64,000 nucleotides of DNA from Buxus sempervirens (Eukaryota; Streptophyta; Magnoliopsida; Buxales; Buxaceae). Below the pieces are notes generated by a model. That model had not been told where the DNA came from, did not search any database, and was given only the letters and a program-made list of their open reading frames with translations. The position numbers were made by a program, and so were the translations under genes. Position 1 is the stretch's first letter. Every line of letters starts with the position of its first letter. The stretch is from NCBI GenBank assembly GCA_947561395.2, contig OX387192.1:744001-808000 (forward strand). The letters are read 5' to 3'. Shown in pieces: positions 16,031-49,581 of the stretch.

Positions 16031-17833
16031 TGTAGACACCCCAAATTGCACTACAAAATGAGAAAATAATGAAAACATTAATTGGAATTTAAAACAGGCA
16101 AAAAATGCATGAAAATCAATAAGTTGAGCCTTGACCGTATTGTATCTACGGGCTAAGCGCGCCCGAATTTTATATACGGGCACGCAGCGCTCGTAATACA
16201 TATACGGACACCATTGGACCGTAAATCATTTACGGGCACATCAGACTCGTGCAAGTTCTGTTCTTCTTTCGATTTCTGAGCCTTATCTTTAGTCCAATAT
16301 CCCTTTAAATGAGCGAATTATATATTTTATTCGTGCGAAATATGTGGATAAAGGATGGGCATGATCTTGTGTTTAACTCAAACTGAAACTCTATCTTGCC
16401 AAACCTTGGACCAACCATACCCCTGTGCTTGCCTATAAATAGAGGGCATTTCCTCAAGTAAAAGGCCACGAAAATTTGAAGTCTAAGAAGCTCTAAGAGA
16501 AGAGAGGAATCCCTGCTGCCTTGCTTGCTCAATCCAGGTAAGTCCCTTTTCCCTTTTATTTTCTGTTTTCAATTCTAGAAGTAATAGGATCTTCTCTATT
16601 GCTGTAGAATAAGGCCATCTTTTGTACTTGTATTCCTAAACTTGCCTTTAAGTACATCAAGAGTCTCTCTAGCCGTAAAACGTGAAGAGAGAGCTAGGGG
16701 AAAAGAGAACAGGTGGATCCCTAGAATAGAACCCCATATCTGTTTTTATCCTTTTTTTCTAGAATAAGGCCTTTGATTGTGTTTGTATACCCAAACTATC
16801 TCCAAGTACCTCAAGAATCCTCTCTAGCCGTAAAACGTGAAGAGAGAGCTAGGGGAAAAGAGAACAGGTGGATCCGTAGGGTAGACCCCCATATGCTCAA
16901 ATCTGTGAGATGTGGCTGCTTTGGATATCCTGATCATGTTTTAATTGCTTTTTATGATGAATCTGAATGAATCACATGAATCTATGATGTTTATAGCATG
17001 AGATCCCCACTTTTTTTTTATAAAATTTGGATTTTCCACACTTTTGCACCTACAGCACTGTTTTCGTGATTTTTGTAATATTAGGCCAAGATCCTGGATT
17101 TATCATGATTAATATGATAGATCTGGATCCAAAAGCCTGAAAATAAATTCTAGGGTTTCATGATGTGGTTTTTAAATCCTTTTTCATTATTGAGAGAAGA
17201 CCCTACGGTCTAAGTTCTCCCCTTTTGATGTTCTTCATCAACATGGGTATTTTTGGTTTTTATTTCTTGATTTAATGTGAAATTTGGGCTATACCTATGT
17301 CCTGGACTATTCAAGTTCAATTTTGAAATATTTTATAAAAATCATATTTTTCTAGATTTCTAGAATTTGACTTGAAGCCAGATTTTTGGATTTTTCACTT
17401 TAAATTGATTTCATTTGATTTTATCTCAATTTTAATTTGATCATGAAACCCTAGGAATGGTATGATCATATTTGAAAGTTCTGGATCAATCAGATTATTC
17501 GTATGAAAAAACCATATATTTTGTCTTTTTTGTGATTTTTCCTGATTTTTATAGCAAGCCTTTTTTCTTTGAAAAACATGAACAATACCTAGCAACCACC
17601 TTGTGTGGATGAATAGGGGTGCCTAACACCTTCCCCTGTTCATAACCTAATCCCCTTACCCATCTCTGGTTGTTTTTTTAGGAGGGTTATTTTTACCCTA
17701 AAATTGCCTTTTGTGCTTATTTAATATTTAGGTGTCCATTCACACCTAAATTGAATGGTGGCGATTCTTTGTTTTATTCAATCCCGCGTGATGATTGAGG
17801 AAGTCATTGGATTTTGATTTTCCATGTCTCACA
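16031..17833 (+). mobile_element. Solo LTR, Tat-type (TGTAGACACC...CTCACA), 1803 bp
   Basis: It begins TGTAGACACCCCAAATTGCA and ends CCATGTCTCACA, with GTTAG duplicated at 16026-16030 and 17834-17838. TATAAAT lies at 16434-16440 in GCTTGCCTATAAATAGAGG, with a leader and a CAGGTAAGT-like splice donor at about 16535. A repeated CGTAAAACGTGAAGAGAGAGC segment occurs near 16674 and 16828. The end of the LTR has GGTGGCGATTC. It is related to, but clearly a different family from, the LTR at 23219 (about half the sequence is alignable by eye). Confidence 0.92.
16119..16251. promoter_or_regulatory. 28-bp-period array of five 21-bp dyads (TACGGGC-N7-GCCCGTA)
   Basis: Dyads start at 16119 (left half decayed), 16147, 16175, 16203 and 16231, a constant 28-bp step, each with a 7-bp spacer. 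Halves are TACGGGC or TACGGAC on the left and GCCCGAA, GCTCGTA, GACCGTA or ACTCGTG on the right. The array ends about 180 bp upstream of the TATA box at 16434. Confidence 0.8.
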
Positions 17834-21705: not shown

Positions 21706-21810
21706 GACCGCATTTACTATGCGGTCTGGTCTGAACCGTAGATGCAATGCGGTTTAGACCAGACCGCATACCAAGTGCGGTCAAGTCCAGACCGCCTTGA
21801 GTATGCGGTT
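21706..21810. promoter_or_regulatory. 28-bp-period array of four 21-bp dyads (GACCGCA-N7-TGCGGTC)
   Basis: Dyads start at 21706, 21734, 21762 and 21790, exactly 28 bp apart, each with a 7-bp spacer. The first and third are perfect GACCGCA-N7-TGCGGTC; the others carry A for G or a C for A at half-site edges. Unlike the other LTR arrays, this one lies about 0.9 kb downstream of the LTR's TATA box in the LTR's own orientation. Confidence 0.85.
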
Positions 21811-23218: not shown

Positions 23219-25498
23219 TGTAGACACCCCAAATTGCACAAACAATCATCAAAAATCATTATCTCCTGGAAAGCCAGCACAGAATTTGAAGAAAATAGAC
23301 TTTTACCTGTATCCGGATACTCAATCCGGATACAAGTACCCTTTCCCGTATCCGGATACTCATACCGGATACATGTGAGCCTTAGCGTATCCGGTACCAT
23401 GTACCGGATACCTTAAAGCCCTTTGTTATCCGGCCTGATATACCGGATACCTTAAGTTTGCTCAAAATTAGGGTTTTCCGAGAGCTTTTCACTTTTACCA
23501 TCATGTCCCTCATTAAATGAGGGGAAATCGCGGAAATAACCTTAGGGTTTTGGTTGGAGGGGTTCTAGACATTAATTTGTGTCTACCAATGACCTTAGCC
23601 CTTGCCTATAAATAGGAGCCTCCTCCTTGAGCAAATGGCACACAACTCTTGTTTTGAATTCTCGCAAAGAAGAACTCCAAGAGAAGAAGAAAACCGCTGT
23701 GGAATCGCCTCCAGAACTCAGGTAAGCCTCAACTTTTCTTTTTATTTTCTGTCTTTACATTCCTAGATCTAGATCTCTTCTTCTACCTTTCTGTAGTGTA
23801 AAGCCTTGTTTGTATGTGTGAAAATCCTTCCCCGGCTCAAAGTATCTCAAGACTCCCCTAGCCGTAAAACGTGAAGGCGGATCTAGGAGAAACGAGACTG
23901 GGGATTGACCCTAGTGCTAGAACCTATGTAGCATAAGGCCTTTTGATTGATTGTAAACCGTTCCATATTCAAAGTACCCTTGATTATCTTAAAGAGAACA
24001 GAGGGAAACGATAATGGAACGGAACCCTAGGCTATGCTAGAACCTATTTTGTTGAATCTATATGCATGTGTGTGGATCTTGCTTGGTTTTTCACTTTTGC
24101 ACACATATTACACCTTTTTGGTGAATAGGCTCACATTTGGGGATTTATTACATTCATTGTGATAAATCTCCAATAAATGGCCTCAATCAAATTCTGGAGT
24201 GTTTTTAAATGTTTTTTAAAGGTTTTGGATTCATCTCACACGAATCACACACTTTTTGTCAATTTTCGGATTTGGATTTCTTCAAAAGTGGCTTAGCTTG
24301 ACAGCACCTGTACCCTTACTTCAGACGTCCATAACTTCATCATCCGGATGAATTTTGGGGCGATTCCAGAACCATGGGAAAGGTGAGGCTGTCTAGTTTA
24401 TGTCCACCAAATTTCACAAATTTCTATCAAGCGGATTTTTGACACCTCTCTGTCGAAGTTAAGTGGACAGTTCAGGCTCAAGTACAGAACTTGTCACTTC
24501 GACGGACCGCCATGTGTTCGTTTTAAGTCCGATTCGAGTGATTTTTGTTTCTGAGTACTCCTTTATGAGTCTATTTTCAAATCCAGTTCGTTTCATAATT
24601 TTTGGATTCCATTTGAATTATTGGTAGCCGATTTACTCAGAACTGCTCATTTGCATTTTTCTGGGTAAATCTGTGATCTTCGGGGCATGTTCGGGAGACC
24701 ACCCAAGGCACATCCGAAGGGATTTTTGTATGAGGCTAGTTTCTCTGGAAAGGTGGCCATACAGACTTCAATCACACCAAATTTCACGGATTTCTATGAA
24801 GTGGATTTTTCTAGATAATTTTCCAAAGTTGCCCACTTACCACTTTTAAAAATCCCCAGCAGCAACTTCAAAGGAGCATAACTCCCTAGATTTTTCGTCG
24901 GAATGAAGTGAAATTTTTTCATGAGACTCTTATTTACCATATTCTTTCAAATGGATTTGGTTTGGTTCAATTTAGAATTGGATTTGAATGATTTTAAGGC
25001 AAATGGCATACTTTTTACCAAATTTTCCGGATTTGATTCAACTTGGTTTTTTAGCAACTTGTGCTTTGATTTCCATCTTTTGAGATATTCCAGAAATGAT
25101 ATTGACATAAGAGAGGATCTAAAATCCATTTAGATCTTCATGTGAAAATATCATACATTAATCCTTTTTCACAGTTTCTCATGATTTTTAGCAAGCTTTC
25201 TTACTTTGTTTTTTGCATGAACATACACTTGGCAACCACTTTGTGTGGATGAATGGGGGTGCCTAACACCTTCCCCCGTTCATAATCTAATCCCCTTACC
25301 CATCTCTGGATTTGATTTTCAAGTAGGATTATTTTTATCCTAGAATGTTTCTTTTGGCTATTTTTGCCTACTTTTGAACTCTTTGGTGTCCATTCTCACC
25401 CCAAAATCATGAATGGTGGCGACTCTCCCAATTTTTGCGTTGAGCCCGTGTGTTGACGGAGGGACGATCACTCCGGTGATTTTTTCCCATGTCTCACA
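23219..25498 (+). mobile_element. Solo LTR of the same family as the 22.8-kb Tat element, 2280 bp
   Basis: It begins TGTAGACACCCCAAATTGCA and ends CCCATGTCTCACA, with a perfect GGAGC duplication at 23214-23218 and 25499-25503. TATAAAT is at 23607-23613. The leader with CAGGTAAGCCTCAAC at about 23720 and most of the body match the LTRs at 26736-29060 and 47247-49581, but with many substitutions, so it is an older insertion. It is nested inside the solo LTR at 20970-25861. Confidence 0.93.
23310..23449. promoter_or_regulatory. 39-bp-period array of four TATCCGG-N9-CCGGATA dyads
   Basis: The 23-bp dyads start at 23310, 23349, 23388 and 23427. All four have intact half-sites and a 9-bp spacer of varying sequence. 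TATA follows 180 bp after the start of the last dyad. Confidence 0.92.
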
Positions 25499-26735
25499 GG
25501 AGCCAGTTTTGCTCATATCTCTTTATCCGGGACTCCGATTCCAGCAAACTCAGTTGCGTTGGAGTCGTGTCGATGCGCCCTTTCTGCTGATATCCAATTG
25601 AGCAGCTAATTCGGAGTTCTGCAGAAAGCCGATTTATGCTATTTCCAGATTTGACCAGCCCATAACTTCTTCATCCGGACTCCGATTTGAGCAAACTCAG
25701 TGGCGTTAGAACCGTATCGGAATCCTCTTTCCAATGGTATGAAGTTTGGTGGTCAATTTGCACCCGATCAAAAAGTCAACTTTTTGAGCCCTTCAAGTTT
25801 GACTTTTTCAATTAGGGTTTTATTCTTTCATTTTTTGGGGTGCAAAAATGAGGTGCTGACAAACATTTTATTATTATTTAATATTTTTTCACTTTCATAA
25901 TTATTTATACGATAAGTTAATAATAATCAAAATGTATTAGACAGCAATGATCAAAATAGGTTAGTAATTTAATGTAGGTTCATCCAAAAGCAAGAAGGTT
26001 TCGAAAGGCAGGTTGTCCCATGTATGATCAACTTGTAATCATATATGGTGACACATCTGCTACTGGGGAAATGGTCAATGCTAATAATCAAAATGTATCA
26101 AACAGCAATGATGATTTTGACCATGGACATGAGTTTCAAACTAAAGACCTTGGCACAATTGATGGGAGTCAAAAAGTATATTTTTTTTATAGGATTGTAT
26201 TGGAGCAATTGATGGGACTCATATTAGTGCCAGTGTACCATCAGATAAACAAATACCATACAAGGGTTGGAAGGTGACGATAACACAAAATGTTATGTGT
26301 GTTTGTTCTTTCGACATGCGCTTTACTTTTGTTTAGCTGGGTGGGAAGGAACAACACATGATGCTTTATTGATGTAGTTACTAAACCTGAATATATGTTT
26401 CCTCATCCACCAAAAGGTAAGTGGAGTCAATAAATTTGGTTTTTATTGTCACAAAAAAGTATAAATGATATCTTATAAATTTTTTTATTCATTTATTAGG
26501 TAAGTATTATGTGGTCAACTCCGGTTATTGCAACATGCAAGGTTTCTTAACAACATTTCCTAAAGAGCGATATCATCTTCAAGAGTATAGAGGAAATAAT
26601 CGTCAACCATCAAGAGCCAGAGAGTTATTCAATCAAAGGCATTCATCTTTGTGGAATGCCATAGAAGTTGTTTTGGAGTTCTAAAGAAACATTTTCCTAT
26701 ACTAAAGATGATGCCTCCATACTCACTTCAGAAGC

Positions 26736-29060
26736 TGTGAGACATGGGAAAAAATCACCCAAATGATCATCCCTTCGTCAACACACGGGCTCAACGCAAA
26801 AATGGGAGAGTCGCCACCATTCAGAATTTTTAGGTGAGAATGGACACCAAAAGATTAAAGAACAAGCAAAAAGAGATAAAAAGTGCTAAAAGGCAAATTC
26901 TAGAGTAAAAATAACCCTACTTGAAAATCAAATCCAGAGATGGGTAAGGGGATTAGATTATGAACGGGGGAAGGTGTTAGGCACCCCCATTCACCCACAC
27001 AAGGTGGTTGCCAAGTGTTTGTTCATGCTAAAAGAAAATAGGAAGCTTGCTAAAAAATCATGAAAAGCCTTGAAAAAGGAACAAGTGTATGATATATTCA
27101 CATGAAGATCCAAATGGATTTTAGATCTTCTCTTATGTCAATATCATTTCTGAAATGTCATAAAAGGATAAAAATCCAAGCAAAAGAATGTACAAAGCCA
27201 AGTTGAATCAAATCCGGAAAATTCGGTGAAAAGTAATGCCATTTGTCTTGAAATCATTCAAATCAAATTTTAAATCAAATCAAACCAAATCTATTTGAAA
27301 GATTATGGTAAATAATAGTCTCATGCAAAATTTCAAGTAACTCCGGGTGAAAACCTAAGAGTTATGTTCCTTGTAAGGTTGCTGCCGGAGAAAATCAAAA
27401 GTAGCAAGTAGACAACTTTGGAAAATCACCTAGAAACATCCACTCCATAAAAACCCACGAAATTTGGTGTGATTGAAGTCTGTATGGCTATCTTTCAAAA
27501 GAAACTAGCCTCATACAAAAATTCATTCGGATGTGCCTTGGGTGGTTTCCCGAACAAACCCCGAAGATCACAGATTTACCCAGAAAAGTACTAATGAGCA
27601 GCTCTGAGTAAATCTGTTACAAATAATTCAAATGGAGTCAAAAAATTATGAAACCAACTGGATTTAAAAATAGACTCATAAAGGAATGCCCAGAAACAAA
27701 AATAATTCGAATCGGACTTAAAACGAACACATGGCGCTCCGTCGAAGTGACAAGTTCTGTATTTGAACCTGAACTGTCCAATCAACTTCGACAGAGAGGT
27801 GTCAAAAATCCGCTTGATAGAAATTAATGAAATTTAGTGGAAATAAACTAGACAGCCTCACCTTTCCCATGGTTCTGGAATCACTCCAAAATTCATCTGG
27901 ACGATGAAGTTATGAGTGTCCGAAGTCGGGGTACAGTTGCTGTCAAGTTAAGCCCTTTTTGAACAAAACCAATGCAAAAATGTGACAAAGTGTGTGAAAT
28001 TCGTGCAAGATGAACACAAAACCTTTAAAAATCATCCAAAGACATTCCAGAATTGATTGAGGCCATTTATTTGAGATTTATCACAATGAATGTAATAAAT
28101 CCCCAAATGTGAGCCTATCCCGCCAAAATAGTGCTATGTATGTGCAAGTGTGAAAAACCATACAAGATCAATAGCATGCATACATATTCATCAAAATAAG
28201 GTTCTAAGAACAGCCTAGGGTTCCGTTCCATTATCGTTTCCCTTTGTTCTCTCTCCCCGTTAAACACGGTTCTTAAAGATAATCAAGGGTACTTTGAATA
28301 TGAAACGGTTTACAATCAATCAAAAGGCTTTATGCTGCATAGGTTCTAGCACTAGGGTCAATCCCCAGTCTCGTTTGTCCTAGATCCCGCCTCCACGTTT
28401 TACGGCTAGGGGGAGTCTCGAGATACTTTGAGCCGGGGAAGGATTTTCACACACATAGAAAGCCTTATTCTACAGAAAGGTAGAAGAAGAGATCTAGATC
28501 TAGAAATATAAAGACAGAAATTAAAAGAAAAGTTTGAGGCTTACCTGGGTTCTGGAAGCACTTCCGCAGCGGTTTCCCTCTTCTCTTGGAGTTCTTCTTG
28601 GCGAGAATTCAAAACAAGAGTTAATGGCCATTTGCTTAAGGAGGAGCCTCCTATTTATAGGCAAAGGTTAGGGTTAGGGTTGGTGAGAATGGTAGACACA
28701 ACATAATGTCTATAGCCCACCAACCTTAACCCTAAGGCTATTTCCGAGATTTCCCCTCATTTAATGAGGGATATGATGGTAAAAGTGAAAAGCTCTCGGA
28801 AAACCCTAATTTATAGCAAAACTTGTGTATCCGGTATATCAGGTCGGATACACAAGGACCTTAAGGTATCCGGTATATAATACCGGATACACTAAGCACT
28901 GCTTGTATCCGGTATTTGTCACCGGATACAAAGAGGACTACTTGTATCCGGCCTGAGTTACCGGATACAGGTAAAATTTCATTTTCTTCAATTTTTGTGC
29001 TGGCTTTCAAGGAGATAATGATTTTTGATCATTTTGACAATGCAATTTGGGGTGTCTACA
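26736..29060 (-). repeat. 3' LTR of the Tat element
   Basis: 2325 bp, TGTAGACACC at 29060 to CTCACA at 26736 on the minus strand. TATAAAT on the minus strand is at 28659-28653. Compared by eye with the other LTR it shows about 40 substitutions and one short length change, about 98% identity. Dyad array at 28828-28967. Confidence 0.95.
28828..28967. promoter_or_regulatory. 39-bp-period dyad array, 3' LTR
   Basis: Starts at 28828, 28867, 28906 and 28945; spacers are 9 bp. Only the first has a changed half (TCGGATA). The TATA box of the LTR is about 190 bp downstream on the minus strand. Confidence 0.92.
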
Positions 29061-29612
29061 ACTACCCCTCTTTGCGGGAGCTGCGAAGCAGTGAGCTGCA
29101 AAGATTAGACAAGCCCAAATTGCATTCCTTGAAGCATGATTTGCTTGATTTAATTCAATTTTGTAAAAAGCAATTTTTGGGTGGAGATTTGCCAAAAAGT
29201 CCTAACTTTAAGGGGGGCATCTCTCCAAGAGTTCTTAAATTCAACTGAGCTCTCGTGGCTGTGAAGTGGATTTTAAGCCCAAAAATAGGATTTTTGAAAA
29301 CTGATTTTTTTATCAAACCAAGTTGAAAATTGAGTGGATATCTTCCTTTTGACCAGCACATTTCCCAAAGTTGTCCTAAATTCCACTGAGCTCTCGTGGC
29401 TGTGAGGTGGATTTTAAGGCAAAAATAGGATTTTTGTGAGAAAATAGCGGACTTTGTAGCACCTTTTTGCTCTTTTCCTTTTTTTTTCTATTTTTTTTTC
29501 ATTTTCCTTTTTTTCTTCGTTTTTCCTTTTTCTTTTTTTTTTCTTTTTTCTTTTTTTCATTTCATTTTTCCCTTTTTTCTTTTCTTTTTTCCTTTTTTTT
29601 TCTTTTTTCTTT
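29061..29612 (-). other. Polypurine tract and 3' untranslated region of the Tat element
   Basis: Directly before the 3' LTR, the minus strand reads GCAAAGAGGGGTAGT (29075-29061), a typical polypurine tract. Further in, two direct copies of a segment around CTGAGCTCTCGTGGCTGTGA (about 29245 and 29388) are followed by a 150-bp T/C tract (29460-29612). No gene is seen; the short lysine-rich frame over the tract is low-complexity. Confidence 0.75.
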
Positions 29613-29614
29613 TG

Positions 29615-29693
29615 TATCCGGTATAACATACCGGATACGAATGATCTTGTGTGTATCCGGTCTGAGTTACCGGATACACAGGGTTTTATAAAG
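29615..29693 (+). promoter_or_regulatory. Promoter of antisense gene A: two 39-bp-spaced dyads and TATA box
   Basis: TATCCGG-N9-CCGGATA at 29615-29637 and 29654-29676, then TATAAAG at 29687-29693, 33 bp after the last dyad start. A CT-rich leader follows. A likely 5'-UTR intron runs from a GACCAG/GTCAGT donor at about 29960 to the acceptor just before 31036. Confidence 0.7.
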
Positions 29694-31035
29694 TCGCGCG
29701 CGACCGCGACTTTCCCTATTCTTTCTTCCTTCTCCGATTACTCAAACCGGACACCTCTCTTCTCCTTCGTCCCCGACGGCTCCCCCCTCTTCTCCGGCCA
29801 TTTCCGGTAGCTCCGGCGCCCCTTATTGCTGCCGGCGACAGTCTGCAACTCCGGCGACCTTCATTGTTCGCCCATTCAAGGCAGCAGTCGAGCCCTAGCT
29901 CGATTTTTCCTGCTTTCTTGTCCATTCGCCTGTTCTTCTCCAATCCGACTCAATCCGACCAGGTCAGTGAGCATCTTAGCATGCATTCTTCCCCTTTTAG
30001 TTCGCTGTGTCAAATACTGTATACATTGGGCGAGCATGCATATATATATATTTTTTCTTGCTGTGTTGAATCCTGTATGCATTGGGCGAGCATATATGCT
30101 TACTGTATTGACTCCTTCAATGTTAGATGCATGCCCATGGTTCCAATTCCTGATGCTTTGTATGATTCTTATTTTGTCCTTCTCCGATCATTTTGCTCAC
30201 TTTGAGCCGGGTTGTTGATTTCAACTGTACTTAGTGCACGCATGTTTCTGATCATGGCGATGGAATTTTTATACCATGCTGCTGCTGTTTTTTTTTCTTC
30301 TGCTTTGACTGCCTTGCCCATTCTGGATTTATATTTCCATAATTCCTTAGGATATGGTTGCCTGCTTGTGAACCGAATTGCTTATTCCGCATTGTATTGT
30401 CTGCTTTGATGGGAAAATGCCCATTTTTAAATTGGATCCACATGCCATGACTTGTTCTTTGACCACACTTTGCATGACCCCTTTGGTATCTCTGCATACC
30501 TTTTATGTTCCGATTGGCTGATATCAAGCTTTAGTTGCCCATATAGCGGTAGTCACCCTTTTAGCCTGATGCCTTTGATAGTACCTGAAAGCCTTAGATT
30601 GCCTGCCGGTGGTATTTGCTGACTGCATGCCTTTTGAACTGATGATGTCATGCTAATTTCCTGATTGCATGCTAGATTTCTTGATTGCATGTTAGAAGAA
30701 GCTTTGATGTCCCAATATTGATCTGATTTTTTGCATTTCCTTAAGATTGACCTGGCTGTGAATTTTTCCCAATTCCTCTTGACTTTCCAACCTGGCTTGT
30801 CGATCTTCACTTCTACTTTTATCCTGTCTCTATGAATATGTCCTGAAATCATGACAGATTAGGAAATGTTAAGCATCGTAGGAATCTTTTAGAAATATCT
30901 CTCCCTTCCCAAAACTTTGTAGATAACACAAATGAGATAAATTCCTTCGAGACATGATTCGTGATAAAAAGAAAAAATCATGTGAACCTAGACAAAAGTA
31001 AGATAAAATTTCTGATAAAAAACTTCCCTGTGTAG

Positions 31036-33677
31036 ATGGCTAGGAGTCGCTCCCACGTGCGAGAGGAGGTTGATCCAGCTGATCAGCCCTCCACTTCGCG
31101 GGCTCGAGTAGAGGCGAGTTCTAGCGCTACCCTTTCGGAGCCGCTAGCTAATTCCACAGAGAGCTCTGCTGAGGTAGGCTTTCAAGTTTTTCTTTTTCCT
31201 CCTTCTATTTCCTTCCTACACAAATCTTCACACCTTTCTCTTGAATTTTAGCCCATTGTTGCTCCTGCTCGAGGTCGAGGCCGAGGCCGAGGTAGGGTTC
31301 ATGATCAGGCCCTTGAGGGCGAGAGAGGCCGTGGCAGAGGCCGAGGTAGAGCTCGAAGTGCGGTTCAGGATGGTGTTGCCGTAGCCTTGTCAGGGGTTTC
31401 TGAGGAGCTGAGAGCATCTGTTCATGATACAGAGCTCCTCAGTGGCTTGGGTAGCCACCCCTCCATGTGCATCAGGGCAGATGTGCCTCTTCCGTATCAC
31501 TCCTCCCATTTGTGAGGCAGTTGGGGGAGATTCAGTGAGTTGGCACAGTCTCTTTCTCCGGCACTCAGGTGTGAGTTTGGGAGGTGCCACCTGGATCATT
31601 TCCTCAGCATCCCATCGTTCAGAGCCGACCGTCCCCTCATCTTCGCCATGATGGAGAGATATTTCCCGGAGACGCAGTCATTCCATCTACAGGACGTGGA
31701 GCTAGGGATCCGCCCCTCCGACTTTGTGATGATTATTGGTATCCCTCTGACGGGGCGGACCATAGTCTTGGAGCGACCTTCTATGGAGGATATTGGCCTT
31801 CTCTTGGGATATCAGGCCCTGCCTCCTGCTGCTTGGGATGGGCGGAGTGGCCGTCTTTCTATTAGTTGGCTGCGGGAGAGCCTGGCTCGACATTTTGAGG
31901 GGAGGCACGAGACTGTTGCTGTGGAGGATGCAGCTTTTGTCCCTATCTTCCGCCATGTATTCCTGCTGATGCTCGGGAGCTGCTTCTTCCCGGAGGATAC
32001 CACCAGTGTCAGCCCACTCTTCTTAGGCCCCTTGAGAGATTTTCATCAGACCCGCCAGCTAGCATGGGGTCGGCTTATATATGGGACCATCCTAGTCGGG
32101 CTGTGCCGAGCGGTTCGAGGCCTGGCATCCCCGAGAGGTGATGGAGTCAGCAGCCGGTTCTTCTGGTAGATTCTGCAGGTATTGAATTCATCTGTCTGGT
32201 TTAATCCCTTATGCTTTATTTTTTTTCTGACTGATTTTCCTTTTGCTAGGTGTTCATGTACACCTATATGACTTTCTTCCGCCCATCCCCGGTACCTGAG
32301 GTCACGGATTTTCCTGTGGCTTTGCGGTGATCGGCCCAGGTCCGAGATGCTGATAGGAGTCAGCCTCGTACTGCTCGGGTGCACTTGGACCGCGCCCGAC
32401 GATCCGATGTAAATTCTTTATCCTTTTTCCTTTTATTTCTCTTCCTGCCTCTTGATTGTATCTGATCACTTTTCTTCTTTGCAGCTCATCTTATCCCATC
32501 CTGATGACGTGGATGTTGGAGTGGCTCGTGAGATGGCAGTACAGGACGCTTTTGATAGAGATCTCCGACGTCAGCCCTACCAGTGCTTCCTTGGGAGACT
32601 TGGTAGGGTGATGTATTTGGGAGAGCGCCTGTATTTCCAGCACACAGGCACACTTTGCATCCCCGTTCCTCCTCCTCCTGTGGGTCCCGACACACTCCTC
32701 CCAGGCTTTGATGTCGATCAGTTCGATCACTTCCTGGATGCGGAGGGGCTCACAGTAGCTGGAGATTATGACGAGTGGATCCAAAGAGTCTCTATTGGAT
32801 GCTTGATGGATAGACCCACTCGTGCCGGGGTGACTGAGATCGGCGGGATCTTCATTCAGGTCCATGATGACACTGTGAGTTTCATGATCTTCATCTTGCA
32901 TCCCATTTTTCTTCAATTCTGCATTTCTGACTCTAATTCTATTCTTATTGGTAGGTACACGAGCTGAATCTGATTCGGGACCGGTTCGAGAGCCAGCGGG
33001 CCGCAATTGATGATATGATCGCAGAGCATGATGCGGTCGTGGCCCAGCGAGATGCTAGGATCAGAGAGCTGGAGGCCCTAGTTGCTGAGCTTCAGGCTAG
33101 ACAGGTATCTGGTCTTCTTATAATTTCATTTCTTTCATGTTTCTGCTATTATGATATTCTGGTTTGATTTTTGCAGGGCCCGGTCCCAGATGATACTGCT
33201 TACGAGCCAGCTCCTCCGGCTCCTGACTTATCTCCAGTTCGAGCTGCTGATCCTGTGGATGTCTCCGTTGCTGACCCGGTTGAGCCGGATCCTCCTGTTC
33301 CTGCTGCAGATATTCCTGGTATATTCTCTTTTAAATTTTTTCCTCTTTGGTTCCTCTTTATATCTCAATTTTCTGATTTTTTTTCTATTGACCCAGATAT
33401 TTCTGCTCCTGGCCCTTCCTCTAATGCTGCTGGGCCTTCTGGATCTGCGGGTCCAGTCGAGCCTGCTCGTGCTGAGCCCGAGGCATCTTCTCCAGATTCT
33501 GCTCCTGCTCCGCCCCCAGACATTGAGGAGTATTGCTTGGAGTATCAGATCCAGCAAGTGGTGGGTTGGCTTCCTTGTCATGCAGCCGAGCGTATTCTGG
33601 CCTACTCTAGGGGCCGATCGCTTTGAGGGAGAGGTCGTAGAGGTGGACGCGGGGATGATCCTGCACAGGAGCAGTAG
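31036..33677 (+). pseudogene. Antisense gene A of the Tat element: plant mobile domain (PMD) protein, 7 exons, with stops
   Basis: Spliced exons: 31036-31173, 31252-32178, 32250-32408, 32485-32874, 32955-33114, 33177-33318, 33397-33677. The start ATG follows a TGTGTAG acceptor. The protein has an RG-rich N-terminus (ARGRGRGRGR), then a PMD/aminotransferase-like region (FHLQDVELGIRPSDFVMIIG and downstream) in exon 2, a coiled coil in exon 5, a Pro/Ala-rich tail in exons 6-7 and an RG-rich end (GRGRRGGRG). Defects: a frameshift near 31480-31540, TAG at 32167 (from a Gln codon), TGA near 32327 (Trp) and TGA at 33624 (Arg). PMD genes occur in several plant transposons; the function here is unknown. 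Confidence 0.75.
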
Positions 33678-33887: not shown

Positions 33888-34047
33888 TATTCGGCATATC
33901 AGACCGGATACATTGAGTTTTCTTTGTATCCGGTCTCATATACCGGATACACATGGTCCCCTATGTATCCGGTTAAGTATACCGGATATGAATAAAACCT
34001 TTGTTATCCGGTCTGAGTTACCGGATACATTAAAAGATGCTATAAAT
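33888..34047 (+). promoter_or_regulatory. Promoter of antisense gene B: four 39-bp-spaced dyads and TATA box
   Basis: Dyads start at 33888 (first half TATTCGG), 33927, 33966 and 34005, all with 9-bp spacers. TATAAAT is at 34041-34047, 36 bp after the last dyad start, and the ATG at 34157 is about 110 bp further on. It lies entirely inside the transposon and points away from its LTR promoter. Confidence 0.85.
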
Positions 34048-34156: not shown

Positions 34157-35860
34157 ATGGAATCTGGATCACCTTCTGCCCCATTATTGTCTGTCCACAC
34201 TGCCTCCCCTGCAAAACAACTTTTTAGATCAAAACCCCCAAATCTCATTAGGTACAACCCTGTGGATTCCTTTTACACAAGATGGGTTAACTCTATGACC
34301 CTAGATGAGGAGAGGAGATTGGACTCTACTAATCAAGGCCATACCCTGCTCATTCCCAAGGTTCCCTTCAAGTGGGAGATTATAGAGGCCATGATTGGTC
34401 ATTGAGTTCCCGACCTCAACTTGTTCCGTTTTGGGAACCATGAGATGACCCCGACCATAGAAGAGGTGGAAACCATCTTGGGTTTGAGGTTTGCAGAGAA
34501 AGTAGTGAATCCACCTCTTAGGCCCAGTTACAAGAAGGAAGCTTCTGCATTCTTGGGCATAGGAAAGAAGGACTTAGGGGATTCTGACACCCTTTTGACC
34601 CTATCTAAGGCTTTTTTGACTGAGAAGCTTTTGAGGGGGGAGAATAAGGAAGCCCGGTTCAACGCCTTGACTCTGATAGTGGTCAACCAGCTACTTTTCC
34701 CACGAGATGATGACGAGGTGGACTTGGCCCTGATTTCAGTGATATGCCAGGTTAGGGAGCGGGAGAGGTTGGCCCCTATGATTTTGGCTGGGATGTATCA
34801 GGCCTTGACTGATTGCTACAATAGGAAGTCGAAACGCTTCCTAGCATGTGCCCAGATCCTGCAGGTAAAAAAAATTTTTTTTTTTAATTTTATTTTTGCT
34901 TTCTTTTTTTGCTTTTTTTGCTTTTTTTCTTTTACAATGTGCTGATATATCTCTCTTCCTTTGCAACTTTGGCTACTTGATCATTTGAGTCAGATTGAGG
35001 AAATCAATCGACACTTCTTCCCGAACTTGAAAGTCCCCATTTTGATGAGCAACTAGGGGTGTCCCGATATTCCAGGGGGCAAACAGGGCTGGTTCACTTT
35101 CTTAGGCTCACTTCAGGATGACCAGGTGAGATGGCCTGGTACTTATCAGCCCAATGCAGAGACAGTGATTAGCTTTCGTGACCGCAATTTTCTGATCCTA
35201 GCTGGCCTGAGACATGCAGTGCTGTATCTTCCTCTGCGGGTCCTTCGTCAGTTCAGAGCGATCCAGGGGATTATCATCCCAAGTGGGTATGAGGATCATC
35301 TGGGGCCCCTTTCTCCAGATACCATGAAGCTGAATGCCTGGTTGATGAGGGAGTGGTCCTATGTTCGCTTTATGCGTGGCCCCGTTTTCTCAGAAGCCCA
35401 TGTGAAGGATTATCTCTTCTGGATCAAGGAGCAGATATAGAGTCAAGCACCAGTACCCTAAGATCCTCCTGCAATCTTGGCTCCTACTTATGAGGATATT
35501 TTAGAGTCTGAGAGGGCTTCCCACAAGCAACTTCAGCAGATATGGGTACGAGAAGCCCAGGAGCTTAGGATACGGGGCCTTGACATGGAAAGGCAACTTG
35601 CAGAGCAGGTATCTCGCCGTCTGGCTATGGAGAAGCAACTTGTGGAGCATAGGCAGGCCCGCTGTCTTGAAGTCCAAGCACTGCGGCAGAAGCATAAGGA
35701 TGCTTTAGCCAGCCTTAGGAGCATGAGGATTAGGCAGACTCTTTCAGATGAGGTCATTTCCTTCTTGAGTGATCTCGCTGCAGAGGGCGCTTCAGGAATT
35801 ATTGCAGCTCAGGCAGCTAGGATTCGAGAACTTGAGGAGCAGCTAGGAGACAGAGATTAG
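34157..35860 (+). pseudogene. Antisense gene B of the Tat element: DUF7745-like protein, 2 exons, with stops
   Basis: Exon 1 34157-34864, exon 2 34977-35860. Exon 1 holds the pattern LIPKVPFKWEIIEAMIGH..VPDLNLFRFGNHEMTPTIEE, as in plant DUF7745 proteins related to the mobile domain. Exon 2 ends in a long coiled coil (about the last 110 residues). Defects: TGA at 34403 (Trp position), TAG near 35055, TAG at 35438 and TAA near 35458. The exon-2 acceptor now reads GCAA instead of GCAG, so splicing is probably lost. It is convergent with the integrase gene; the 3' ends are about 0.95 kb apart. Confidence 0.75.
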
Positions 35861-44282: not shown

Positions 44283-45300
44283 TGGAATATTTTAGGGCTT
44301 CCAAGGGTCTCGAAATTTTTTGATTTGATTGGTATGAAAAAGACCAACCAAGGGTTCATGGAATATTTTAGGGCTTCCAGAGGTCCCACTTTTTTTTTGA
44401 CTTGATTGGTAAAAAGAAGACCAACCAAGGGTTTTTTTTTTTTGGGAATATTTTAGGGCTTCCAAAGGTCCCACAATTTTTTGATTTGATTGGTAAAAAG
44501 AAGACCAACCAAGGGTTCATGGAATATTTTAGGGCTTCCAGAGGTCCCACTTTTTTTGACTTGATTGGTAAAAAGAAGACCAACCAAGGGTTTTTTATGG
44601 AATATTTTAGGGCTTCCAGAGGTCCCACTTTTTTTGACTTGATTGGTAAAAAGAAGACCAACCAAGGGTTTTTTATGGAATATTTTAGGGCTTCCAAAGG
44701 TCCCACAATTTTTTGATTTGATTGGTAAAAAGAAGACCAACCAAGGGTTCATGGAATATTTTAGGGCTTCCAGAGGTCCCACTTTTTTTGACTTGATTGG
44801 TAAAAAGAAGACCAACCAAGGGTTTTTTATGGAATATTTTAGGGCTTCCAGAGGTCCCACTTTTTTTGACTTGATTGGTAAAAAGAAGACCAACCAAGGG
44901 TTTTTTATGGAATATTTTAGGGCTTCCAAAGGTCCCACAATTTTTTAATTTGATTGGTAAAAAGAAGACCAACCAAGGGTTCATGGAATATTTTAGGGCT
45001 TCCAGAGGTCCCGCAATTTTTTGATTTGATTGGTAAAAAGAAGACCAACCAAGGGTTCATGGAATATTTTAGGGCTTCCAGAGGTCCCACTTTTTTTGAC
45101 TTGATTGGTAAAAAGAAGACCAACCAAGGGTTTTTTATGGAATATTTTAGGGCTTCCAGAGGTCCCACTTTTTTTGACTTGATTGGTAAAAAGAAGACCA
45201 ACCAAGGGTTTTTTATGGAATATTTTAGGGCTTCCAAAGGTCCCACTTTTTTTTTGACTTGATTGGTAAAAAGAAGACCAACCAAGGGTTTTTTTTATTT
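44283..45300 (-). repeat. 13-copy tandem repeat of about 77 bp in the Tat leader
   Basis: Each unit contains AAGACCAACCAAGGGTT and GGAATATTTTAGGGCTTCC, followed by a short T run and TTGATTGGTAAAAAG. Unit lengths vary between about 73 and 82 bp through the T runs. Copies are very alike, so the array expanded recently. Frames of 100-160 codons are open on both strands because most units are multiples of three; no protein function is implied. It lies directly upstream of gag. Confidence 0.92.
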
Positions 45301-47230
45301 TTTTCAAATTTGCTGAATTTTCTCAGTTTTCAAGTTCAAAAGCTTGATTGAAACATGTTTGAGTTGAATTGATATCAAAAAATATGACACCTTAGCTTGT
45401 TCTTGGAGCTTCAATATTATGTTTAATCTTAAAGGAATACACATTTTTTTCTTTTTTTTTTTTGGACATTTTTATATTTTCTTTGGGGTGCCTAAGGATT
45501 ATCCACAGTGTTTAGGCATTTTATTCTGAAAATTCGGGCTGAAAAAGCCAATTTATTCATTTTCTGCATGTATCCGGTATTAAGGGCTGGATAAGCATAT
45601 GCCTTATTGTATCCGGTAACAATGACCGGATACACGCATATGTCTTTGTATCCGGTAATATATACCGGATATGAAGGAAAGTGTTCTTAACTGGCCTGAG
45701 TTGCCGGTTAATGCCTAAATGGCCATTTTTGACTCATTTTTTTCACCAGATTAGGTTTTTTTCATTCCCACTTGATGTTCACCTTAACTTGACCTTCAAA
45801 ACTTGCCCCAAATTGGGCTTGCACATCATACTTGCAAAATTCCCCAAATTCATGAAAATAGCATGGCTTTACCTTGCCACCTTGTATTACCTTCATTCAA
45901 TATGGTATTCACATTATACCTTGGCCTGTAAAACATGCAAACGGCCTTCCCACATTTACACCAAATTCCCCAAACGCAATTGTGTACTTTTAGCTGAAAA
46001 CGTGTTTCTCCACCTTCAAGCGTATGGTTTTTGAGTTTTGGCTTAATTGGCAACTTAGAACTCAAGTCTAGTGATGCCCGGAATCGAATCACAGATCCCA
46101 TTGTCATCACATCATTGACTCAAATTCTAAGGTGAATGCTTTCACTTTCGCTTTCCGAAGTCACGACCTCGGTGCGCCAAGCTACCTACATTCATGGTTC
46201 AACTTCCTATAGGTAAAAGGGTAGGTTGTGCAAAGTGTTTATTGTGCTCAAGTGCATTTAAAATTGAGGTAACATTCACAACGTCCCAGCCCCTTGCCAC
46301 TCTTTTTCGTAGCCATGCATTCAATTTCAAGCCAAGGTACATATGACAAAATAATGAAGCTAAATACAAGCAAGCAAGAGCCAAAGCAACCAAATATGCA
46401 CAAAAATATTACATGCCCAAAAAGTGGTGTACAAGCATGTTATCATGTTATACCAATAACCAAAAAATCATGCTAAACATGCTTGAAACCCAAAAGCATT
46501 CCCTAAATCTCAGATTTCATGCTCTTTTTCATGCTCAAAGTGTACCATTTCTACCCAAGTTGAAGCCTAAAAATTTTAGCAACTACTTGACATGGTCCAA
46601 AAGTGTTTCAATTAGGTAAAACATGCTTGAAATCTCCCCCGAAATACACTCAAATTTCCAGATTTTTCATGCTCAAAAGTGCATCACTCATACCCCAAAT
46701 TAATGCCTAAAAATTTAGCAACTACTTGACATGGTATAAGGAGAGTTTTGATGGTAAAAACATGCTTGAAAACCTCCAAATTAACTACTGAATTCCAGAT
46801 TTCATGCTCATGGTTTTCATGCTCAAATCAAGTCCCCCTATACCCCAAATCAAAGGCATGGCATAATAATAAAAAAAATTTAAGCACAAGAAAGCATGCT
46901 TCATGGGAATCATGTTTGAATACCCCAAAAATTCTGAACTCCTAGATTTCATGCTTCTAATTCTCATGTTCAAACCATGGTATTAAAAATTCAAATTAGA
47001 GCATGTTATCACCAAATGCATCAAAATCATGCTTCAAGATAGGCTTTTCTTAAATCAATCTCTAGGCAACATCAAACAACACATGCATGCCTTTGTCCAT
47101 AGAAATTCCCAAGCATCCTAATCAGATTTAAAATACAACAATATGCACAATAAAATAAGCAAAATAGCAAGCATTCAAAAGTAAGTAAAAAGCATGAATA
47201 TACACAAAATGGCTTAAATCCACAAATCCC
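45301..47230 (-). other. Leader region of the Tat element between PBS and the tandem repeat
   Basis: Non-coding. 46620-47030 has several direct copies of a GCATGCTTGAAA...CCAGATTTCATGCTC pattern. 46070-46200 holds a tRNA-like stretch (see findings). A four-dyad array is at 45571-45710. No gene is recognised. Confidence 0.6.
45571..45710. promoter_or_regulatory. 39-bp-period dyad array in the Tat leader
   Basis: Starts at 45571, 45610, 45649 and 45688, all with 9-bp spacers. The second and third have intact half-sites; the first has CTGGATA on the right; the fourth is TAACTGG-N9-CCGGTTA. No convincing TATA box is adjacent on either strand (GAATAAAT on the minus strand near 45560 is the best candidate). 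Confidence 0.85.
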
Positions 47231-47244
47231 CAGCAGAGTCGCCA
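47231..47244 (-). other. Primer binding site of the Tat element
   Basis: Two bases after the 5' LTR the minus strand reads TGGCGACTCTGCTG(GGGA), of the tRNA-Arg-complementary type described for Ogre and other Tat elements. The tRNA assignment is from family knowledge. Confidence 0.8.
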
Positions 47245-47246
47245 GT

Positions 47247-49581
47247 TGTGAGACATGGGAAAAAATCACCCGAATGATCATCCCTCCGTCAACACACGGG
47301 CTCAACGCAAAAATGGGAGAGTCACCACCATTCAGAATTTTTAGGTGAGAATGGACACCAAAAGATTAAAGAACAAGCAAAAAGAGATAAAAAGTGCTAA
47401 AAGGCAAATTTTAGAGTAAAAATAACCCTACTTGAAAATCAAATCCAGATATGGGTAAGGGGATTAGATTATGAACGGGGGAAGGTGTTAGGCACCCCCA
47501 TTCACCCACACAAGGTGGTTGCCAAGTGTTTGTTCATGCTAAAAGAAAATAGGAAGCTTGCTAAAAAATCATGAAAAGCCTTGAAAAAGGAACAAGTGTA
47601 TGATATATTCACATGAAAATCCAAATGGATTTTAGATCTTCTCTTATGTCAATATCATTTCTGAAATGTCATAAAAGGATAAAAATCTAAGCAAAAGAAT
47701 GTACAAAGCCAAGTTGAATCAAATCCGGAAAATTCGGTGAAAAGTAATGCCATTTGTCTTGAAATCATTCAAATCAAATTTTAAATCAAATCAAACCAAA
47801 TCTATTTGAAAGATTATGGTAAATAATAGTCTCATGCAAAATTTCAAGTAACTCCGGGTGAAAACCTAAGAGTTATGTTCCTTGTAAGGTTGCTGCCGGA
47901 GAAAATCAAAAATAGTAAGTAGACAACTTTGGAAAATCACCTAGAAAAATCCACTCCATAAAAACCCACGAAATTTGGTGTGATTGAAGTCTGTATGGCT
48001 ATCTTTCAGAATAAACTAGCCTCATACAAAAATTCATTCGGATGTGCCTTGGGTGGTCTCCCGAACAGGCCGCGAAGATCACAGATTTACCCAAAAAAGT
48101 ACTAATGAGCAGCTCTGAGTAAATTTGTTACCAATAATTCAAATGGAGTCAAAAAATTATGAAACTAACTGGATTTAAAAATAGACTCATAAAGGAGTGC
48201 CCAGAAACAAAAATCATTCGAATCGGACTTAAAACGAACACATGGCGCTCCGTCGAAGTGACAAGTTCTGTATTTGAACCTGAACTGTCCAATCAACTTC
48301 GACAGAGAGGTGTCAAAAATCCGCTTGATAGAAATTAATGAAATTTAGTGGAAATAAACTAGACAGCCTCACCTTTCCCATGGTTCTGGAATCACTCCAA
48401 AATTCATCTGGACGATGAAGTTATGAGTGTCCGAAGTCGGGGTACAGTTGCTGTCAAGTTAAGCCCTTTTTGAACAAAACCAATGCAAAAATGTGACAAA
48501 GTGTGTGAAATTCGTGCAAGATGAACACAAAACCTTTAAAAATCATCCAAAGACATTCCAGAATTGATTGAGTCCATTTATTTGAGATTTATCACAATGA
48601 ATGTAATAAATCCCCAAATGTGAGCCTATCCCGCTAAAATAGTGCTATGTATGTGCAAGTGTGAAAAACCATACAAGATCAATAGCATGCATACATATTC
48701 ATCAAAATAAGGTTCTAAGAACAGCTTAGGGTTTCGTTCCATTATCGTTTCCCTTTGTTCTCTCTCCCCGTTAAACACGGTTCTTCAAGATAATCAAGGG
48801 TACTTTGAATATGAAACGATTTACAATCAATCAAAAGGCTTTATGCTACATAGGTTCTAGCACTAGGGTCAATCCCCAGTCTCGTTTCTCCTAGATCCCG
48901 CCTCCACGTTTTACGGCTAGGGGGAGTCTCGAGATACTTTTAGCCGGGGAAGGATTTTCACACACATAGAAAGCCTTATTCTACAGAAAGGTAGAAGAAG
49001 AGATCTAGATCTAGAAATATAAAGACAGAAATTAAAAGAAAAGTTTGAGGCTTACCTGGGTTCTGGAAGCACTTCCGCAGCGGTTTCCCTATTCTCTTGG
49101 GGTTCTTCTTGGCGAGAATTCAAAACAAGAGTTAATGGCCATTTGCTTAAGGAGGAGCTTCCTATTTATAGGCAAAGGTTAGGGTTAGGGTTGGTGAGAA
49201 TGGTAGACACAACATAATGTCTATAGCCCACCAACCTTAACCCTAAGGCTATTTCCGAGATTTCCCCTCATTTAATGAGGGATATGATGGTAAAAGTGAA
49301 AAGCTCTCGGAAAACCCTAATTTATAGCAAAACTTGTGTATCCGGTATATCAGGCCGGATACACAAGGACCTTAAGGTATCCGGTATATAATACCGGATA
49401 CACTAAGCACTGCTTGTATCCGGTATTTGTCACCGAATACAAAGAGGACTACTTGTATCCGGCCTGAGTTGCCGGATACAGGTAAAAATTCATTTTCTTC
49501 AATTTTTGTGCTGGCTTTCAAGGAGATAATGATTTTTTATGATTGTTGATCATTTTGACAGTGCAATTTGGGGTGTCTGCA
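47247..49581 (-). repeat. 5' LTR of the Tat element
   Basis: 2335 bp. The first bases are TGCAGACACC (one change from TGTAGACACC). Minus-strand TATAAAT is near 49170-49163. Dyads start at 49339, 49378, 49417 (right half CCGAATA) and 49456. It contains the leader sequence ending in an AACCCAGGTAAGCC splice-donor-like site (about 49060). Confidence 0.95.
49339..49478. promoter_or_regulatory. 39-bp-period dyad array, 5' LTR
   Basis: Four 23-bp dyads at an exact 39-bp step, matching the 3' LTR. Spacer sequences are conserved between the two LTRs. TATA lies about 170-190 bp downstream on the minus strand. Confidence 0.92.

Follow-up and report, generated by a model that had tools for sequence, protein, structure and literature searches.

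We analysed a stretch of 64,000 nucleotides of Buxus sempervirens DNA (GCA_947561395.2, contig OX387192.1, positions 744,001 to 808,000), called the window below, which carries a long terminal repeat (LTR) retrotransposon of the Tat clade with two antisense genes (gene A and gene B). Arrays of the dyad TATCCGG-N9-CCGGATA are found in both LTRs of this element, in its leader, upstream of gene A and upstream of gene B. The finding goes beyond what a first-pass annotation of this DNA had stated: instead of a single dyad there are several dyad classes of the same geometry, as CCG-N11-CGG is common to the classes with TATCCGG, GCCCGTA and AACCGCA half-sites. Here we show the sites, their geometry, the constraint on them, their position and the three motif classes. 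We see about an even chance that the dyads are the sites of a putative dimeric factor encoded by the elements themselves, most likely the product of gene B. In the part of the open-licence literature that was listed, titles and abstract openings hold no description of such dyad arrays.

Dyad arrays in the window and in the genome

With up to three mismatches allowed, there are 23 matches to TATCCGG-N9-CCGGATA in the window against 0.96 expected from shuffled sequences (the largest of 100 shuffles has 5), and a chance origin of the dyads was therefore rejected. All 22 dyads listed in the first-pass annotation are real: 17 are exact, four have one mismatch (28828, 33888, 45571 and 49417) and one has three (45688); the 23rd match, at 29731, is weak. 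The 22 dyads form six arrays, and the step is 39 bp inside all of them. Four dyads are found in the array of the 5' LTR (49339..49478, ~100 bp inside the LTR start), four in that of the 3' LTR (28828..28967), two at the gene A promoter (29615..29676, followed by TATAAAG at ~29687) and four at the gene B promoter (33888..34027, with TATAAAT at 34041, 36 bp after the last dyad begins). The leader array (45571..45710) has four units, the last of which is degenerate with changes in both arms, and a sixth array of four dyads lies in an older, inverted copy of the LTR (23310..23449).

The dyad had earlier been assigned to every Tat-family promoter, which is too wide, as two overlooked arrays in the window carry other half-sites. 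One (16133..16237) has four dyads of the type G[CA]CCGTA-N7-TACGGGC (two degenerate) and the other (21706..21810) has four of the type [AG]ACCG[CT]A-N7-TGCGGT[TC] (one degenerate), both with an exact 28-bp step. The first is located ~100 bp into an LTR, as in the LTR of the window element; this LTR begins TGTAGACACCCC at 16031 (with TATAAATAG at 16434), has the same end as that of the window element and shares 75% identity with it over 309 bp. The second is hosted by a relic that resembles an LTR and matches that of a second lineage, F2 (described below), at 70% identity over 356 bp. Scanning the window for CCG-N11-CGG gave 28 sites, compared with a mean of 1.9 in 60 Markov shuffles (one unit of the 16133-16237 array has no exact core); the steps between them are 39 (11 times), 28 (four) and 56 (three), with no other step up to 60 bp. 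The difference between the 28-bp and 39-bp steps, 11 bp, is close to one turn of the helix.

The genome that we searched comprises 676.5 Mb in 14 contigs of 33-72 Mb. It contains 28,399 exact TATCCGG-N9-CCGGATA sites (the reversed-pattern control gives 5). TATCCGG/CCGGATA pairs with any spacer of 1-31 bp number 28,822 (control 59), i.e. 98.5% of the pairs have a 9-bp spacer, in line with the invariant spacer length noted earlier; the spacer bases vary, as had also been noted, but not freely, G being the first spacer base in merely 73 of 56,798 oriented sites. The 39-bp step, said to be exact, is so inside the six window arrays but is not absolute elsewhere: among dyads with at most two mismatches, taken from the window plus 26 loci that were fetched (one of them pieced together from three), steps of 38 bp (13) and 103 bp (2) are found besides 39 bp (158).

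On the first 5.92 Mb of contig C1, 90 exact sites form 32 clusters (24 with at least two sites and eight single), and 82 of the sites have another exact site within 200 bp. Successive gaps below 200 bp are 39 (48), 78 (5), 77 (3), 38 (1) and 103 (1). Seven of the eight single sites have a further array within 4 kb; the last one (4227668, L045) is in a degenerate four-unit array. This bears on the possibility that a host transcription factor family (dimeric, with a CCG core; LBD-like proteins are a family that we presume could serve) binds the dyads as LTR enhancers, with the antisense promoters using the same enhancer. Host-bound LTR enhancers are well known, e.g. in Tnt1 (BII) and ONSEN (heat elements), where repeated host-bound sites lie in U3 (the unique 3' part of the LTR) as the arrays do here; we know of no such repeats at antisense gene promoters or in co-varying classes. 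None of the 90 exact sites is a lone site of the kind expected in a host promoter (degenerate sites and single half-sites in host genes were not searched), and we regard a host factor as doubtful, though still a serious rival.

One further place on C1 (3385807-3395482) has LTR-type arrays separated by just 9.5 kb, and exact dyads that are spaced like those of the gene A and gene B arrays; it is perhaps a short derivative without gag-pol.

Constraint on the half-sites

We fetched 20 relatives of the element, out of 150 places listed, by similarity to a gene A exon and not by their dyads. Each of the three arrays (LTR, two-dyad gene A and gene B) is found in 19 of the 20, and three of the LTR arrays have lost one dyad. 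In alignments of 20 copies (window included), the mean pairwise difference of half-sites is 2.9% for the LTR, 3.3% for the gene A and 2.3% for the gene B arrays; the corresponding values are 22.7%, 32.9% and 21.4% for linkers, 28.1%, 30.4% and 15.6% for spacers, and 6.5%, 28.1% and 9.4% for flanks. Between two subfamilies the majority base differs in 1 of 140 half-site columns, 30 of 111 linker columns and 26 of 90 spacer columns (56 of 201 for the latter two together), and in 125 of 1,427 flank columns; Fisher tests, which treat columns as independent, give 1e-13 for half-sites against linkers plus spacers and 1e-4 for half-sites against flanks. CpGs in half-sites are kept in 96-98% of copies, and other CpGs of the same regions in 72-84%.

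Single inserted copies behave differently. In seven LTR pairs of single elements (six of them chosen via exact dyad matches), 5 of 392 half-site positions have changed versus 17 of 3,833 elsewhere (p 0.047), so that half-sites decay after insertion at or above the neutral rate, as CpG-rich DNA does, and are not protected in the inserted copy. The first-pass annotation had taken loss of half-sites at the neutral rate as a sign against selection; half-sites are kept between aligned relatives, but inside the seven LTR pairs the loss is at least neutral. Because half-sites are kept among relatives while spacers and linkers change, and decay once inserted, the alignments indicate that purifying selection on transposing copies explains the half-site pattern.

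The same dyads are found in the F2 lineage. The copy that we read on C1 extends from 5919700 (the start of the fetched stretch) to ~5936975, with LTRs 99.5% identical over the 2.63 kb read and an open pol frame of 2,136 residues; its pol shares 68% nucleotide identity with that of the window element over 3.2 kb, and its LTR aligns with the LTR of the window element at the dyads alone, among the BLASTN matches listed. Five dyads precede the TATA box and four more lie ~900 bp downstream. Further copies were found via 16 of the 73 oriented sites with a G-initial spacer: by BLAST, 11 of these 16 loci are F2-type and five window-type, with no other type. Pairwise differences among the eleven F2 copies, with the ascertained unit masked, are 6.6% for half-sites, 34% for linkers, 44% for spacers and 20% for flanks. 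Half-sites and their spacing are thus kept both in the 20 relatives and in the 11 F2 copies, which bears out the earlier claim of selection beyond the copying of a tandem repeat and contradicts descent from one ancestral tandem repeat without constraint. In L041 and its relatives, a GC-rich stretch between dyad units 2 and 3 (TCGCGCGAGATTCGCGCC ... AATTCGCGGCGG) appears more conserved than the surrounding F2 LTR and may be another site.

The distance from the arrays to the TATA box is fixed at some promoters. Counted from the first base of the last dyad, the TATA box of gene B arrays is at 36 bp in 20 out of 20 copies, and that of F2 LTRs at 35-36 bp in 10 out of 11 (the remaining one, L072, has a one-base loss in the last dyad and a TATA box at 74 bp). 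Gene A has TATAWA at 32-33 bp in three of 20 copies and none within 50 bp in the other 17. In window-family LTRs the conserved TATA box, TATAAATAG, is 157-168 bp from the array in 19 of 20; a TATAAAT adjoining the array of the window LTR was considered as the LTR TATA box and rejected, as none of the 19 relatives that have an LTR array shares it. Downstream of the dyad, the gene B and F2 promoters share one short stretch of homology (equalled in 1 of 500 shuffles); homology between the gene A and F2 promoters was rejected (120 of 500 shuffles equal). Right after the TATA region of gene A there is a CpG-rich near-palindrome, GTCGCGCGCGACCGCGAC (29693-29710), which is kept with few changes at most in the 20 gene A arrays compared.

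A mutational process could also give matching arms: template switching would repair or invert them and copying of arrays would spread one repeat, with little selection. Arm homogenisation and spacer inversion by template switching are described in the available part of PMC8604942, and such switching can keep arms alike. In-place inversions of the spacer, with both palindromic arms intact, are indeed found in our collection: unit 4 of the LTR array reads ATACTCAAT in L024 but ATTGAGTAT in L025, the linkers being identical on its left and near-identical on its right, and unit 3 of the gene B array (33966) has TTAAGTATA in the window and TATACTTAA in L010, with nearly the same linkers. The LTR, gene A, gene B and leader arrays of one element also have spacers in common. 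Among 66 changed pair positions in 247 dyads, six have both arms changed as a pair, as this process would produce (all come from leader or F2 arrays), but 58 are one-sided (and two unpaired), whereas the process predicts that arms drift with their symmetry kept; the arm sequence, not symmetry alone, is kept. Nor does it explain that TATCCGG is kept across LTR lineages alignable at the dyads alone, or that CCG-N11-CGG is fixed in three classes. We consider it very unlikely as the main cause. Strong symmetry of the spacers themselves was rejected: of 119 distinct spacers, 53, 48, 56 and 33 are complementary at the four pairs, all within the shuffle maxima (56, 60, 70 and 44; means 40.0, 41.5, 53.4 and 29.8).

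The counts of arm changes also bear on whether the dyads are hairpins in full-length RNA or single-stranded DNA, with a role in packaging or reverse transcription. The arms of 7-8 bp are able to pair, by sequence alone, and the arrays of the window element lie in or between the LTRs and so possibly in genomic RNA. But compensatory changes are few (six paired against 58 one-sided and two unpaired), the exact sequence is kept rather than pairing, and the TATA distance is fixed at gene B and in the F2 LTR, all of which makes hairpins highly improbable.

Motif classes at gene B homologues and LTRs

Gene A contains a plant mobile domain (PMD) and gene B a DUF7745 domain. We read 600 bp of upstream sequence for 14 DUF7745 loci (from 118 places listed, 5,751 candidates) and 2.6 kb for 16 PMD genes belonging to other families (from 117 places listed, 8,448 candidates), both sets being picked by hand to span the lists rather than at random. 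No TATCCGG dyad is found in the 600 bp upstream of the 14 DUF7745 genes; eight of these promoters carry dyads of other sequence, at the same place as the gene B array. They fall into two groups, defined after inspecting the sequences: GCCCGTA-N7-TACGGGC upstream of five genes (L085 and L087-L090, with L087 degenerate) and AACCGCA-N7-TGCGGTT upstream of three (L083, L084 and L086). The two groups have 16 and 11 CCG-N11-CGG sites, respectively, compared with 0.37 and 0.14 expected. All other CCG/CGG spacings from 3 to 16 are empty in the GCCCGTA group, and the AACCGCA group has two sites at 7 and three at 16. The step in these promoters is 28 bp, with 27, 41, 55 and 69 bp also found. Near the N-terminus, and with one copy taken per class, gene B homologues of the window family and of the GCCCGTA class are identical at 55 of 68 residues; the other two pairs each share 48 of 68.

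Both additional classes are abundant in the genome. There are 11,266 exact GCCCGTA-N7-TACGGGC sites (control 0), and the total for any spacer of 1-31 bp is 11,328 (control 105), so a 7-bp spacer is found in 11,266 of the 11,328 pairs; AACCGCA-N7-TGCGGTT has 3,706 exact sites (control 2). For the first 50 exact GCCCGTA sites on C1, gaps below 200 bp are 28 (9), 56 (4), 110 (4), 111 (2), 100 (2) and 109 (1). Of the 118 listed DUF7745 matches, two map to the part of C1 below 17.2 Mb (10,600,809 and 14,559,809); an exact AACCGCA dyad lies 357 bp upstream of the first and 355 bp upstream of the second.

Two further LTRs were compared with those of the window. L095 is another LTR like the one at 16031 (68% identity over 442 bp), whereas the promoter in L094 resembles an LTR but has no alignment to any of the references used; next to its TATA box it carries GCCCGTA-class dyads arranged 3+2 around a 110-bp gap. 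In these examples the motif class is not tied to LTR descent, since LTRs that can be aligned carry different motifs while the same motif is found in LTRs that cannot. GCCCGTA arrays of identical layout, again with a 110-bp gap, are found 12 kb apart at C1:8110176-8110362 and C1:8122237-8122423; they resemble the two LTRs of a single element from a further lineage.

The classes also count against a host factor, since three motif classes of one geometry would need three such factors, and since the motif class tracks the gene B class at the eight array-bearing promoters. Three coexisting specificities with one geometry, at homologous promoters and in LTRs, are explained most easily by a factor that diversifies together with its sites, in other words one made by the element.

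The candidate factor and its host element

In the mechanism that we propose, a dimeric sequence-specific factor would contact CCG-N11-CGG and the flanking bases, and would sit in short arrays upstream of core promoters, those of the LTR (sense) and those of the antisense genes. The elements would encode this factor, most likely through gene B, whose DUF7745 domain is a PMD relative; gene B and the LTR would be switched together, gene A would be another target or a partner, and LTRs that lack the gene, as in F2, would borrow the factor. We single out gene B because arrays are found at some of its homologues but at none of the other PMD genes sampled, and we favour its product, about which we are evenly divided, over the doubtful host factor. 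Activation or anti-silencing would be a likelier outcome of binding than high-dose repression, because the sites are close to TATA boxes and because they are conserved across lineages, whereas single copies do not keep them once inserted.

Gene A, with its PMD, might encode the binder instead. It has its own two-dyad promoter array in 19 of 20 relatives, a coiled-coil-like exon and a dN/dS of 0.07, a value biased by the choice of copies by similarity of that same exon. The 16 PMD genes of other families have no arrays, though, whereas eight of the 14 DUF7745 genes do, so that a gene A binder seems unlikely.

Several observations weigh against an element-encoded gene B factor. Upstream of the 16 other-family PMD genes there is no dyad array in 2.6 kb, only scattered matches with 2-4 mismatches, and six of the 14 DUF7745 loci have no dyads within 600 bp upstream. 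In the F2 copy, no Pfam match (and so no PMD or DUF7745) was found between pol and the 3' LTR in the three frames scanned, out of four with at least 100 residues, and translated comparison of this region gives just short, weak matches to genes A and B. The dyads of F2 are conserved all the same; F2 may be a borrower, or a point for a host factor, as are the PMD genes without arrays. On these two grounds the element-encoded factor suggested in the first-pass annotation is no more than a candidate. Sharing of a motif other than TATCCGG by LTR and gene B is known from separate loci and not from one element, and no 28-bp step is seen among the first 50 exact AACCGCA sites on C1 (gaps below 200 bp are 48, 56, 60, 148 and 156, once each), which leaves three gene promoters and the window array as the basis for the step of this class. 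As the arrays of an element share spacers, copying between arrays would explain matching motifs as well. Finally, the sole structure model (AlphaFold, three sequences) is poor, with a pLDDT of 49.6, and no DNA-binding fold can be assigned from it to gene A or B.

Somewhat more tentatively than for the gene B product itself, the whole may be a switchable self-control of Ogre-type retrotransposons in plants: a DUF7745 dimer would bind dyads at its own promoter and in the LTR, with a flanking-base code for each family that is exchanged between LTR lineages and with F2 as borrowers, a possible retrotransposon counterpart of VANC. Other systems in which a factor of an element or virus acts via repeats at its own promoter are TnpA of Spm, with its subterminal repeats, and Tax/HBZ of HTLV, which also has an antisense gene; both differ from the dyad system in protein families and layouts.

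The analogy with VANC proteins of VANDAL transposons, drawn earlier, is strengthened by the homologous antisense-type genes that have different dyads of the same geometry in one genome. According to the part of PMC5735166 available, the VANC gene is encoded in VANDAL and a short motif occurs in tandem arrays in non-coding parts, as here. Related VANDAL families have different motifs, and here three motif classes are found at promoters of gene B homologues (none at six of 14 loci). The same part reports that the unrelated element AT9TSD1 carries the VANC motif and is affected by VANC6 (PMC5735166), and F2, which carries TATCCGG dyads, could by analogy use the window-family factor in trans. The differences are that VANDALs are DNA transposons (Mu-like) and not LTR retrotransposons, that their motif is a single short one and not a dyad, that there is no known relation between the protein families, and that demethylation is shown there (PMC5735166, in the part available) whereas the element described here is known from sequence alone.

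Antisense genes of Tat elements have been described with function unknown (available parts of PMC7264820 and PMC11963269). For the antisense open reading frame (ORF) of Retand, encoding TRP28, a regulatory, DNA-related role has been proposed (PMC11963269), which is a likeness; here, however, the domains are PMD and DUF7745 instead of TRP28 and there are arrays at the antisense promoters, while the text available for Retand names no binding site of TRP28. The TRP28 domain (PF04195) had no match up to an E-value of 1 in eight antisense pieces scanned. Host PMD proteins act in silencing (PMC5418596, PMC7156037), and those of MAIN/MAIL1 affect transcription and transposon silencing in connection with a promoter motif, as far as the available parts of PMC7156037, PMC9899485 and PMC5418596 go. 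MAIN and MAIL1 are host genes, though, with PP7L as partner, and we rejected their DOWN motif as the same site, as the instance given there, CATGCAGTTT, is not a dyad.

The arrays supply a candidate DNA target for the Tat antisense genes, long known without a function. If the proteins bind them, this would explain control of both strands in some very large plant repeat families, add a second kind of sequence-specific self-regulation of plant transposons beside VANC, and give a function to the PMD superfamily, whose host members act in silencing.

The host element lies on the minus strand, between its 5' LTR (47244..49581) and 3' LTR (26733..29060), which are 97.9% identical. Several reading frames between 36812 and 44193, also on the minus strand, encode gag (PF03732), a G-patch, reverse transcriptase (RT), RNase H, a second RNase H and integrase; one ORF contains both RT_RNaseH (30-134) and RVT_3 (189-307), and the next contains rve. 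A second RNase H between RNase H and integrase places the element in the Tat clade of Ty3/gypsy, and this domain order together with the PMD suggests an Ogre. A PMD is found in 57% of Ogre elements, according to the part of PMC6317226 available, and here an additional ORF region with PF10536 and PF24924 is found on the strand opposite to the element.

Genes A and B are located between pol and the 3' LTR, on the plus strand, and both are broken here; their exon limits were set by eye. Gene A (31036..33630) has exons with the PMD (PF10536, E 6.7e-13) besides the coiled-coil-like one, and gene B (34157..35857) matches DUF7745 (PF24924, E 2.1e-15), with a weaker, overlapping PMD match and, from a reading of its translation, a coiled-coil-like C-terminus. 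Exon 2 of gene B has a dN/dS of ~0.09 at a dS of 0.28, so gene B is itself under constraint. Searched against a large protein set, gene B had no match and gene A a single one (a MAIN-LIKE 1-like protein of Camellia); a search of PDB sequences gave no match. Pairs of PMD genes ~3.4 kb apart, mostly of 575-590 residues each, are found at no fewer than 12 places and form a further family; three of these loci (L048-L050) were read upstream and have no dyad array there. The window element also has a 78-bp tandem repeat of ~13 copies (44283-45294), located between its leader array and gag.

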